From an uncultured Rhodospirillales bacterium (lineage in GTDB: Bacteria; Pseudomonadota; Alphaproteobacteria; RF32; CAG-239), in contig CACWLK010000009.1 of assembly GCA_902761715.1 (NCBI GenBank), forward strand, positions 1-59,298: DNA of 59,298 bases. The letters are read 5' to 3'. The notes under the pieces were generated by a model. It was not told where the DNA came from, searched no databases, and worked only from the letters and a program-made list of their open reading frames with translations. Numbering within the stretch: position 1 is the first letter of the stretch; the number at the start of each line of letters is the position of its first letter. Of this stretch, positions 1,946-22,380 are shown one piece after another. Both the position numbers and the translations under genes were made by a program.

Positions 1946-1970
1946 ACAAAAAAGTCGCCGATAAGGCGAC
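1946..1970 (-). terminator. Intrinsic terminator ending the candidate RNA
   Basis: On the minus strand GTCGCC, loop TTATC, GGCGAC is followed by TTTTTT. This GC-rich stem is a textbook intrinsic terminator. It closes the structured non-coding stretch to its right. Confidence 0.8.
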
Positions 1971-2135
1971 TGGAAGTTGGTAACTACACAAAGATAGTGC
2001 GACATATTGACTGGAAAAGCTTATTTTGCCGCCTTCCAGTCCTAAAAGACTTTCCGGCGTGCAAAAGTTTCGTCTTTACACAGACGCTTTGTGAGAGGTT
2101 ACCACACCCCAGACAGGAACACCCTATCCAAAGTA
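1948..2135 (-). ncRNA. Candidate free-standing structured RNA
   Basis: No credible protein is encoded here, but the minus strand folds well. GGTAAC and CACAAAG near the 5' side pair with CTTTGTG and GTTACC near the 3' side, giving about 13 closing base pairs. Inside lie a hairpin CGTCT/AGACG and a hairpin AGTC/GACT, plus competing GACTGGAA/TTCCAGTC pairs. The element ends in an intrinsic terminator and begins just after the double terminator of the previous operon. A possible weak promoter is TTTACA with TATAGA 15 nt on. It matches no RNA family I know: it lacks the SRP apical motif and the tmRNA or RNase P cores. Boundaries are approximate. Confidence 0.5.
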
Positions 2136-2701: not shown

Positions 2702-3025
2702 CTACCAGTTTTTGGGATATTTTACATATAGTGGCACAGAATCTTGACAATCATCAAGATAATTACTTAATCTCGCTGTTTGCCACGGAATATCAATACA
2801 TCCGGCAGAACCTTTATTCCATCCGCCATGAATAGAAAATCCACTACGACCATAGGTATTAGTATTTTTATCCGGTTGCAACCATACTCGTCTGATTCCC
2901 CATGCAACAGGATTTCCGCTCCAATTACTTTTTTGATTAGAAACAATTCTTAACTTTTCACCCAACTTAAGAGCAATATTTCCAAGGGTTAAACACGGAG
3001 ATTTGTATTCTTGATAAAAATTCAT
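2702..3025 (-). CDS. Short effector with L,D-transpeptidase-like (DUF2778/Tlde1-like) module
   Basis: A 107-residue product. Residues 1-10 (MNFYQEYKSP) are identical to the start of the GH108 effector at 4344-5213. After this the sequence switches to a module with GRSGFSIHGG then GSAGCIDI (His66 and Cys76), the catalytic signature of L,D-transpeptidase-like peptidoglycan enzymes such as Tlde1-type T6SS effectors. The domain looks shortened at its N-terminal side, so activity is uncertain. I chose the start at MNFYQ because the upstream codons encode AAGGAAAAGAG, an ideal Shine-Dalgarno. A terminator hairpin sits directly before it and a small membrane gene follows. Confidence 0.65.
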   Translation of the reverse strand: MNFYQEYKSPCLTLGNIALKLGEKLRIVSNQKSNWSGNPVAWGIRRVWLQPDKNTNTYGRSGFSIHGGWNKGSAGCIDIPWQTARLSNYLDDCQDSVPLYVKYPKNW

Positions 3026-3040
3026 CTCTTTTCCTTTCAT

Positions 3041-3096: not shown

Positions 3097-3336
3097 TTAA
3101 GAAAAAGGTTCCCCTTTTTCTTTTTTTCTCCTATTTTCCTCCGTTATTGGCACGCAACCAATATTGTCATCCCATGTCAGACAATCATTCCGACACTTCT
3201 TTTGTATTGGATCATAAATTTCACCACTATCAAGACAAGTTACCTTCATATCCAGCTCAAAAAAACAGTATATACTCACTAACAAGATAACAAAGCAAAA
3301 CAGGATATATTTTACAATTTTTCTAATATTTTTCAT
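3097..3336 (-). CDS. Membrane-anchored Cys-rich small protein, candidate immunity partner
   Basis: 79 residues: a basic start, one hydrophobic anchor (about residues 9-28), then an outward-facing segment with four Cys (VTCLDSG, KKCRNDC, IGCVP) that could form two disulfides, and a charged tail. Its start overlaps the end of the broken effector at 3323 by 14 nt, implying translational coupling. A short disulfide-bonded periplasmic protein coupled to an effector fits an immunity protein. No family is recognised, so this role is inference. Confidence 0.6.
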   Translation of the reverse strand: MKNIRKIVKYILFCFVILLVSIYCFFELDMKVTCLDSGEIYDPIQKKCRNDCLTWDDNIGCVPITEENRRKKEKGEPFS

Positions 3337-3840
3337 TTATACCTTTTACTCTTTTATAGCTACATGCACCAACAGAACTAGTATATCGTGGATCATCTAC
3401 CAAAGCACGCCCATAACTATTAATATCTTTGTCATGCCAATAATCCGCTAACGCATCAGGAAACTGTATTCCCTTATAATATCTATTTTTAAAATAATCA
3501 AATACTTCTTTTTCATCTCCCATAATTTTTGCTGTTAATTTTCCCCAGTTTCCTCTTTTTGCTGCCTCATAATTAGCTTTACAATGAAAATAATCATCTG
3601 CTCCTACTGTATTATCTCGTTTCATATCAAAATAATTTCGTGTCATATCTTGAACTGCTCCAACAATTTGTTGCAAAGGAGAATATTTAATTTTTGATTG
3701 TTGATTTTGCACCGGTGTCATATTCATTGCCGGATGATTTTGCACATTCTGCCCGATATTTCTAATTCCGAAACCATATCATTCTCTCCAATCCCCTGTC
3801 GTTGCAAATCAGTTGCCAATCGACGTTCTTTCGTGTTTAA
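3323..3840 (-). pseudogene. 5'-truncated, frameshifted effector with a toxin-like C-terminal module
   Basis: The 3' part encodes an intact reading frame from NHPAMNMTPVQNQQS onward, a linker identical to residues 71-84 of the GH108 effector. It continues into a different C-terminal module (DDYFHCKANYEAAKRG ... DINSYGR ... GACSYKRVKG). From memory this resembles a conserved module at the C-terminus of some Rhs or secreted proteins. Upstream, homology to the GH108 gene continues to NTKERRLA but in a shifted frame, and stops abruptly near 3837, so MNFYQEYKSP and its ribosome-binding site are missing. The only long frame would begin at a GTG that is a Val in the intact copy. It is either a pseudogene or a silent orphan cassette. 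Confidence 0.65.
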
Positions 3841-3897: not shown

Positions 3898-4347
3898 ATG
3901 AAATATTTTCTAATACTCTCATTCTTCTGCATAATTGTTTGTTCTAACGCTTTTTGCACAGAAACCACAATTGATACACTCGAAAGAGATTTTATTAATT
4001 GCTCTAATGCATTTAAAAAAATGGAACAAAAATGTCCTGAATCGTGGAGCATGAAATGTTACGACCACCTCATGTCTGCTCATAAGACCACTCAACAATG
4101 CTTTCGCAAAACTGCCATAGAATTATTTGAGAAATTTTACGGATTATCAAATAGTGAAGCCCAAAAAAAAATTGATGATTTTAATAAATTTATATATGAC
4201 CAATACCTTTTTATATTTTCTGAAACAGATTTTTGCAAAAAAAACAATTGTGGTATATCCTTATACTTATATAGCGAATATACCACAACTGAGCAATTAC
4301 AATATTATGTAAATAAAATAATTAGATCTATATCTGCTAGAAACTAA
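3898..4347 (+). CDS. Secreted six-Cys protein, candidate immunity to the GH108 effector
   Basis: 149 residues with a Sec signal peptide (about residues 1-20, ending SNAFCTE). The mature part carries six Cys (INC, EQKC, MKC, QQC, DFC, NNC) and is mainly helical and polar. It would fold in the periplasm with disulfides. It is convergent with the GH108 effector and overlaps its last codons by 4 nt, yet has its own near-consensus promoter. Constant expression of a periplasmic antidote against a cell-wall hydrolase would explain that layout. The size and Cys pattern recall lysozyme-inhibitor-like proteins, but I recognise no specific family. Confidence 0.6.
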   Translation: MKYFLILSFFCIIVCSNAFCTETTIDTLERDFINCSNAFKKMEQKCPESWSMKCYDHLMSAHKTTQQCFRKTAIELFEKFYGLSNSEAQKKIDDFNKFIYDQYLFIFSETDFCKKNNCGISLYLYSEYTTTEQLQYYVNKIIRSISARN

Positions 4348-5213
4348 TATTCTCCATATCTTTTTCTATGCCCCTTTTCAAATATTATTTGTGATGGATT
4401 TCTTCTCTGATATTGATCTTCTACCTTATTTACATTGTTTATAAAATCTGTTCTTATATTCTTATAATTTGTATTTTTAGAAGCCGCTAAAGTATCTGAA
4501 CCAATTATACCGTCAGCCTTTACCCCCAGGGCTTTTTGCAAATTCATAATTGCTGTTGACTGTCCCTGCACAACTCCATTATCAAAAACAATATTAGCAA
4601 AATCATCAGGAAGTTGATTTATTTTTGGCTTTAACCAATAATCTCTATAATATATCGCATCGGCTCTTTCTTTTGTCATATTTTTAATGTCCTCACTTGG
4701 ATAAACTCGAGAGCTTATACCATAATTAGTAGCACCTCCCCTATCATTTGGGTGATTAACATAACCACCCTCGTTTTTTCTTGTCCTCATCATTGCTTTT
4801 TGAAAACGAGTATCATTTAGCATTTGATTAATAAATTCATGACTGAACCCTTCTCCATAACGGGCATAATTAACTGGCTGAAAATTTTGTACACCACCTT
4901 CGACCAAACGCATACCATTTTGTTGTAACATAACATTGGTTTCCGCTTGTTGACTTGGTGCTGATTGTTGATTTTGCACCGGTGTCATATTCATTGCCGG
5001 ATGATTTTGCACATTCTGCCCGATATTTCTAATTCCGAAACCATAATTATTTTCGCTGTTATTTGCCAATCGACGTTCTTTCGTGTTTCTTGCTGTTTGA
5101 TACTCCAGCTCATCTCGAGTATCAAAACCTCTATGGTCAACACCATAACTATCTATCCCGTTTGTACCTGTCTGGTACCCAAACGGAGACTTGTATTCTT
5201 GATAAAAATTCAT
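4344..5213 (-). CDS. Modular effector with GH108 muramidase and peptidoglycan-binding domain
   Basis: 289 residues. A disordered N-terminus starts MNFYQEYKSP and includes a Gln/Asn/Pro-rich linker (NHPAMNMTPVQNQQS, about 71-84). A GH108 glycosidase domain follows, with catalytic Glu148 in KNEGGYVNHPNDRGGATNYG (about 146-165), then a C-terminal PG_binding_3-type domain (VFDNGVVQG, LGVKADGIIG). GH108 enzymes cut the glycan of peptidoglycan and usually act as phage endolysins or secretion-system effectors. There is no signal peptide and no holin nearby, and the N-terminal pieces recur on other toxic modules. That argues for a delivered effector rather than a prophage remnant. The start was set by the AAGGAAAAGAG ribosome-binding site. 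Confidence 0.75.
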   Translation of the reverse strand: MNFYQEYKSPFGYQTGTNGIDSYGVDHRGFDTRDELEYQTARNTKERRLANNSENNYGFGIRNIGQNVQNHPAMNMTPVQNQQSAPSQQAETNVMLQQNGMRLVEGGVQNFQPVNYARYGEGFSHEFINQMLNDTRFQKAMMRTRKNEGGYVNHPNDRGGATNYGISSRVYPSEDIKNMTKERADAIYYRDYWLKPKINQLPDDFANIVFDNGVVQGQSTAIMNLQKALGVKADGIIGSDTLAASKNTNYKNIRTDFINNVNKVEDQYQRRNPSQIIFEKGHRKRYGEY

Positions 5214-5228
5214 CTCTTTTCCTTTCAT

Positions 5229-5332
5229 AAAAAAAGGCTGTCATCTGACAGCCCCTGTTAAACTCAAACATAATGAAATACAAAAAAGTCCTGCCGACAC
5301 ATCGACAGGACTTCACCCACTTGTTCCATTAT
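5229..5332. repeat. Direct repeat copy 2 (tandem-terminator element)
   Basis: A near-identical copy of 2167-2269. Here the two leftward terminators (5236-5253 and 5286-5313) are not behind a gene. They stand between a putative leftward promoter and the start of the GH108 effector. Either they are the relic end of a lost upstream cassette, or they act as an attenuator in the effector's leader. Confidence 0.85.
5234..5313 (-). terminator. Double intrinsic terminator in the GH108 effector leader
   Basis: The hairpins AAGTCCTG/CAGGACTT plus T6 and GGCTGTC/GACAGCC plus T7 are in series and read leftward. The U-tract of the second abuts the effector's Shine-Dalgarno. A transcript from the promoter at 5341-5369 would have to pass both. 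Confidence 0.7.
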
Positions 5333-22109: not shown

Positions 22110-22380
22110 TTGCAAAATACCGTAGGTTGTTATAGCTTGAAAACAGATATGTTTACACATATTCAGAACCTGTAAACGGTTCGGAGCCTTCACAAGCTCA
22201 TTACCATATTCGGCGCTCGGAATAACGTCGTCAAACAATCGTTTTGATTGTTGAATATTCCCAGACTGCGGTCTGGGAGCTTTCAGCGTATGTCCAATAA
22301 CTTTTGTTTAAAGGCTGAAAGATCATTTGATATGGTATGATTTGTGAACTCCCAGACCACTTTTCAGGTGGTCTTTTTTT
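22110..22380 (+). promoter_or_regulatory. Attenuator-like leader upstream of the XRE regulator
   Basis: This non-coding stretch carries a chain of hairpins: GAACC/GGTTC, AACAATC/GATTGTT, CCCAGAC/GTCTGGG (22260-22277) and CTTTCAGC/GCTGAAAG (22280-22321). It ends in a terminator at 22354-22380. GGTCTGGGAG (22270-22279) is perfectly complementary to CTCCCAGACC (22349-22358), which holds the 5' arm of the terminator. So the RNA can form either the local hairpin plus terminator, or a long-range antiterminator. The gene after it starts 26 nt past the U-tract. The same hairpins could instead belong to a small RNA; I cannot identify a ligand or known riboswitch core. Confidence 0.5.
22354..22380 (+). 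terminator. Terminator just before the XRE gene
   Basis: AGACCAC, loop and GTGGTCT followed by T7. It lies in the leader rather than after a gene, and its 5' arm overlaps a competing 10-nt pairing. Confidence 0.8.

Follow-up and report, generated by a model that had tools for sequence, protein, structure and literature searches.

In phage P1, the a' and b' segments of the processed C4 RNA bind a1 and b1 and also a second target, a2/b2, that lies over the ribosome-binding site. The annotation of the P1 record gives the order promoter, a1, b1, C4, a2, b2 and icd, and Rfam places the P1/P7 C4 RNA (RF01695) and c4-a1b1 (RF03163) in clan CL00128, of which c4-2 RNA (RF02944) is a further member. 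C4 RNA is made by RNase P, according to work cited in PMC5320573, and the Group 1 C4-like sRNAs of Acinetobacter baumannii, which match the Rfam C4 motif and are treated as phage-origin sRNAs, are present in many copies per genome and are apparently processed from longer transcripts (PMC5320573). In the literature sRNA-Xcc1 (RF02221) is a trans-acting sRNA; it was detected as an 88-nt RNA (PMC2996969), lies upstream of symE in Xanthomonas integrons (PMC12444791) and occurs as five copies, ~381–386 nt apart, at 1,313,466–1,315,082 of Xylella fastidiosa Temecula1, in a genomic island, where they are reported as vesicle sRNAs (PMC12189769).

The RNA element described here was found in a 59,298-nt stretch (the window) of contig CACWLK010000009.1 from an uncultured Rhodospirillales bacterium of the family CAG-239. 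Unlike the A. baumannii RNAs and unlike sRNA-Xcc1 as it is described, it is a leader with a terminator: a previously undescribed, multi-copy, putative on/off leader that stands before surface and accessory genes of gut alphaproteobacteria.

A structured leader RNA and its gene

The initial annotation described the minus strand at 1946–2135 as a structured small RNA that begins after a double terminator, is closed by a 13-bp helix, ends in a terminator and belongs to no standard family, and these traits were borne out. The predicted fold (−65.8 kcal/mol) lies well below those of shuffled sequences (−47.9 ± 4.0 kcal/mol; z = −4.46), none of 200 being as good. The closing helix is present as 6 bp (GGUAAC/GUUACC) and 7 bp (CACAAAG/CUUUGUG), and a terminator scan returned one terminator at the 3' end (1971–1953, minus strand) and two upstream of the element (2251–2222 and 2193–2172, both minus strand). 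No Rfam family reached its cut-off; the best sub-threshold score, from RF02221, was 33.8 bits against a cut-off of 53, and RF02221 membership is not claimed. The annotation also noted that Hfq is encoded in the window; an Hfq-like ORF lies near 26.8 kb (minus strand), and nothing in our analysis implicates Hfq in the element.

Table 1. The leader element, its promoter, parts and gene, and the second copy, in window coordinates
Feature	Position	Strand	Basis
Whole leader RNA element, model positions 1–190	1948–2132	−	R1 match, 177.4 bits
Promoter: −35 TTTACA (2164–2159), −10 TAGAGT (2141–2136), spacer 17	2136–2164	−	Consensus scan
P1 hairpin, 7 bp; counterpart of first hairpin of c4-a1b1	2111–2129	−	Pair counts, Rfam RF03163 layout
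P2 hairpin, 4 bp, 8-nt loop carrying a1 (2103–2099, GGUAA)	2095–2110	−	P2 100% paired
b1 (CACAAAG), complementary to b'	2087–2093	−	Sequence and within-copy complementarity tests
P3 hairpin; loop in pseudoknot (GUGUA/UGCAC)	2059–2086	−	Pair counts, also in independent sequences
P4 hairpin (AGUC/GACU), excludes P5	2038–2051	−	99.3% paired
C4-like domain: P5 (2041–2033 with 1976–1968) enclosing P6 (2032–1999) and P7 (1998–1983)	1968–2041	−	sRNA-Xcc1 homologue
b' (CUUUGUG), in P7 loop	1987–1993	−	Sequence and within-copy complementarity tests
a' (UUACC), between P7 and P5 closing strand	1979–1983	−	a1–a' pair counts
Terminator hairpin (1970–1965 with 1959–1954) and T tail	1948–1970	−	Scan; 99.6% paired
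Shine-Dalgarno AGGAA of controlled gene	1907–1911	−	Sequence
Controlled gene, 105 aa, PF14373 superinfection immunity protein family	1583–1900	−	Pfam E = 2.1e-15
Second, divergent element copy	22162–22379	+	R1 34.2 bits, E = 1.6e-8 in window
Gene behind second copy: Cro/C1-type HTH regulator, 101 aa	22406–22711	+	PF01381 E = 6e-16

The annotation took the element for a free small RNA; it is instead a 5' leader that most genomes of the family carry in several copies before genes unrelated to one another. The ATG downstream of the terminator, the further copies in the genome and the weaker second copy in the window had gone unnoticed. As in a cis-regulatory 5' leader, the element has its own promoter and a same-strand start codon directly downstream, with 47 nt, Shine-Dalgarno sequence included, from the terminator to the ATG of the superinfection-immunity-family gene. 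This arrangement is general: a Shine-Dalgarno sequence and an ATG lie within 120 nt downstream in 125 of the 149 copies with enough downstream sequence, compared with 6 of 137 on the divergent side, the median gap to the ORF is 27 nt (140 copies with an ORF there), and the −10 box ends 3–4 nt upstream of the element in 99 of 150 copies. Such placement is too regular for an independent sRNA. A free-standing trans-acting sRNA, the view taken at first and that of the sRNA-Xcc1 literature, would account for the element's own promoter and terminator, for one tandem pair (locus L082) without a long ORF between and for the detected 88-nt RNA (PMC2996969); a terminated leader would likewise appear as a short RNA, however, and with the regular position before start codons this makes the trans-acting reading very improbable. 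A housekeeping RNA of the 6S, RNase P, SRP or tmRNA type, to which only size and position point, is already contradicted by the zero Rfam and ARAGORN matches, by a variable copy number and by the element's absence from some near-complete relatives.

Two other roles for the leader region were considered. A leader peptide was rejected, as the alignment shows no conserved start codon. The 3' strand of P5 could serve as an anti-Shine-Dalgarno sequence, and 41 of 123 controlled genes have GGAAGT in their start region, versus 40 of 422 Shine-Dalgarno-bearing ORFs from the same loci; this is suggestive, but we do not claim it because related genes share start regions, the sequence windows compared differ in length and some controlled genes are also among the controls.

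The element lies beside an island in which the genes at 2702–3040, 3323–3745 and 4344–5228 (all minus strand) have common N-terminal segments from near-identical repeats (98–100%) and different C-terminal domains: a Tlde1-like domain (below cut-off), serum amyloid A (PF00277, E = 2.8e-20) and a GH108 lysozyme. These genes look like an effector set with a common N-terminal tag. The suggestion that the RNA is a resident regulator of this island was not supported, as its gene is a different one, the island repeats lack the element and no tie to the neighbouring effector-like genes was found. Separately, an 80-nt repeat that includes the terminator hairpin upstream of the element (2190–2269) recurs at the other end of the island (5253–5332, 95% identity), possibly as the footprint of a duplication or exchange.

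Copies in related genomes and the genes behind them

The same DNA recurs in the same genome at 75% identity, and of 57 genomes from relatives or from the same class, 22 contained it. A covariance model, R1, built from an alignment of 39 copies matched 141 of 152 genomes of the family, often with many copies (up to at least 17 per genome, 17 being the largest number of candidates scored in any one). In the class, 34 of 289 genomes from many families matched, nearly all of them 0.9–2.4 Mb in size, and in a phylum sample only 2 of 349 did so, both from the class. Many surveyed genomes are metagenome assemblies, and copies that are related do not count as separate events. When named genomes were scanned with a DNA pattern, the matches were mostly gut alphaproteobacterial metagenome assemblies, many ruminant-derived; one Kiritimatiellaeota-labelled and one Gastranaerophilales-labelled record (L145 and L130) also matched, by binning error or transfer. 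Cargo of phages or plasmids was rejected as an explanation, the phage, plasmid and IMG/VR viral-contig collections searched giving no match.

The proteins encoded behind the copies fall into 62 clusters, which include prepilin-like proteins, beta-barrel outer membrane proteins, lipoproteins, glycosyltransferases, HTH regulators and small unknown proteins. Within the present genome, further copies lie before the genes of two glycosyltransferases, of an EcoRI-type methylase and of the Cro/C1-type regulator; one of them, at C8:49644, lies 169 nt before its glycosyltransferase gene, with the Shine-Dalgarno sequence and ATG of a shorter reading frame in between. The leader at 1948–2132 (−) is 86% identical to that at L004:655–850 (−), and the genes behind them, of the superinfection-immunity family and for a secreted protein, are unrelated; promoter and leader may therefore be exchanged between genes. 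At L082:1216–1675 (−) and at L131:2394–2834 (+) two copies stand in tandem; their a/b words differ, and the ~65–115 nt that separate them contain no long ORF.

Covariation and the two folds

The initial annotation had named a covariance search of homologues as its check, and compensatory changes proved strong. In the 39-copy alignment 94.7% of cells are paired and 29 pairs show double changes; none of 500 shuffles scored as high, and versions with slid partners pair at 36–45%. Nine helices were supported against both shuffled and slid partners, as were a1–a', P4 and the full terminator. The a1–a' helix, which is not part of model R1, is 99% paired in the alignment. In 79 sequences that had not been used to build R1 it is 98.7% paired and shows 128 double changes, where shuffles reached 46 at most. 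In the same 79 independent sequences P5 is 99.7%, the terminator 97.8% and P4 86.7% paired.

The a1–a' helix comprises the most variable paired positions of the element, its pairing being kept while the word itself differs from copy to copy, even within a genome. The b1–b' helix aligns poorly because the length of its loop varies, and its pairing was tested by complementarity within copies. The a' and b' segments pair best with the a1 and b1 of their own copy (none of 2000 permutations was as good), within single genomes the copy's own a1b1 was best in 36 of 39 comparisons, and the arms of the second copy in the window also pair best with their own a1b1. Such a test would favour any covarying long-range helix; it is evidence of pairing and not, in itself, of antisense action.

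The 5' strand of P5 is common to P4 and its 3' strand is common to the terminator, whose first three bases it contains, and all three helices stay paired across copies. Since P4 and P5, and P5 and the terminator, share columns, the two folds exclude each other; shared strands with pairing kept are what marks a two-state RNA. The terminator is present in the minimum-energy fold of all 39 copies and the a1–a' helix in that of 38, and the C4 fold lies on average 13 kcal/mol above, a gap whose size is not literal as the calculation leaves out pseudoknots. A T-rich tail follows the terminator in 135 of 156 copies, about one in seven being without.

The alignment shows near-invariant blocks and a conserved, A-rich P6 loop. 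This loop is strongly conserved in RF02221 members too, which suggests an unrecognised binding site. An RNA-binding protein that shifts the fold from this loop would make the leader a protein-responsive attenuator and would explain the conservation in both R1 and RF02221 members; with no candidate protein, and with the covarying private words left unexplained, we regard this as improbable.

Relationship to sRNA-Xcc1 and C4 and a proposed model of attenuation

The 87-nt RF02221 model spans the same P5[P6,P7] domain as the element. One locus, L086, passes RF02221 (56.2 bits; cut-off 53) and R1 (73.5 bits) at the same place, and on this basis the 3' half of the element is homologous to sRNA-Xcc1; the RF02221 locus L212 in turn matches R1 (E = 3.6e-10). 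In a phylum search RF02221 matched 46 of 249 genomes. Most of the 20 loci inspected (L209–L228) have a Shine-Dalgarno-bearing coding start shortly downstream; a1b1 lies 5' of the RNA, and in most of them an a or b word is repeated close to the start codon. In these leaders the arms fit both the a1b1 and the start region of the locus to which they belong (none of 5000 permutations as good in each case). Judged by these sequences, sRNA-Xcc1 homologues across proteobacteria look mostly like C4-type leaders with a1b1 and a2b2 and not like free trans-acting sRNAs. The ~381–386 nt spacing of the X. fastidiosa copies would fit an array of leader plus small gene.

The element and the C4 RNAs share the order promoter, hairpin, hairpin with a1 in its loop, b1, C4 domain and gene. 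In both, a long stem encloses two hairpins, b' lies in the second loop and a' before the closing strand, and a1, in a hairpin loop behind a first hairpin, is followed by b1, the two being complementary to a'b'. The Rfam structures of C4 and c4-a1b1 correspond to P5[P6,P7] and to P1 plus P2, respectively. The 88-nt sRNA-Xcc1 transcript and likewise the 77-nt C4 RNA have about the length of the P5 domain. In sequence, the stem is preceded by a U-G step and followed by GCC, much as at known RNase P sites. The element differs from P1/P7 C4 in having no antirepressor gene, a conserved P6 internal loop and a terminator that overlaps the closing stem. The a2b2 target over the ribosome-binding site, a core part of the C4 mechanism, is essentially absent from the copies in alphaproteobacteria (14 of 123 rank in the top 5%, where about 6 would be expected); where most inspected RF02221-type leaders have a2b2-like repeats at the start region, these copies have the terminator instead. 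A classical C4 in the family was rejected, RF01695 giving no match in 82 family genomes in a search in which the controls were silent too. C4 matches were also lacking in the window and at 16 class-level loci, R1 and P1 c4 gave no sensible alignment of the C4 domain, and RF02944 did not match the element, its one sub-threshold match being elsewhere in L214. We therefore describe the element as C4-like in layout and as related by descent to sRNA-Xcc1, and C4 family membership is not claimed.

These data bear on whether the leader is a new riboswitch, in which the pseudoknotted domain with the P6 internal loop would bind a small molecule and the exchange between P5, P4 and the terminator would be the expression platform. 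The conserved loop, the mutually exclusive helices with a terminator and the many copies, some in tandem, before unrelated genes with a surface theme, as for second-messenger riboswitches, are all consistent with this possibility. We nonetheless find it rather unlikely: the a1–a' words vary yet pair, also within one genome, as specificity words would rather than an aptamer, the RF02221-type relatives target their own start regions, and no Rfam riboswitch matched.

We favour, with a probability of roughly 0.6, a locus-specific C4-type attenuator, a promoter-plus-leader module that would decide whether transcription enters the next gene. The model draws on the cis-leader position, both helix sets, the locus-specific pairing, the homology of the 3' domain to sRNA-Xcc1 and the P1 c4 layout. 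In the terminated (off) fold, a1 and b1 would pair with a' and b', P4 would hold the starting strand of P5 and the terminator would form. In the open (on) fold, the C4-like domain, with P5 around P6 and P7, would form instead, and P5 would take three bases of the 5' arm of the terminator, which would thereby be lost. Each copy would do so with a different pairing code. We infer that the terminator stops polymerase, that P5 antiterminates and that RNase P processes the domain. With no second target left, the arms seem to act inside the leader itself or, less likely, on sister transcripts. A pseudoknot between a1b1 and a folded C4 domain is possible, so that the pairing of a1b1 may not be exclusive to the off state. 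The balance between the attenuator's two folds may be shifted by a sister RNA that comes from the same locus and binds a1b1, by a ligand or a protein acting on the P6 loop, or by the kinetics of folding.

An unlikely variant would have the C4-like domain released as a processed short RNA, a copy-private antisense that would pair with a1b1 on sister transcripts of its own locus and hold the gene in the on (or the off) state; covarying long-range pairs alone do not show antisense action. If this were true, each surface gene would have a separate self-reinforcing RNA switch, a scheme familiar from phage immunity, here used for cell-surface variation.

The locus-specific attenuator would join the C4 immunity RNA of phage P1, the sRNA-Xcc1 of Xanthomonas and chromosomal gene leaders, which have so far been kept apart. 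It suggests that sRNA-Xcc1, which has been regarded as a virulence sRNA acting in trans, forms at many loci the central part of a leader that controls the gene downstream of it. The class is missing from Rfam, and in a widespread group of gut bacteria many genes for pilin-like proteins, outer-membrane proteins, lipoproteins and glycosyltransferases appear to be under its control. Its members would offer a natural collection of RNA attenuators that are apparently orthogonal, a short pairing code being private to each.
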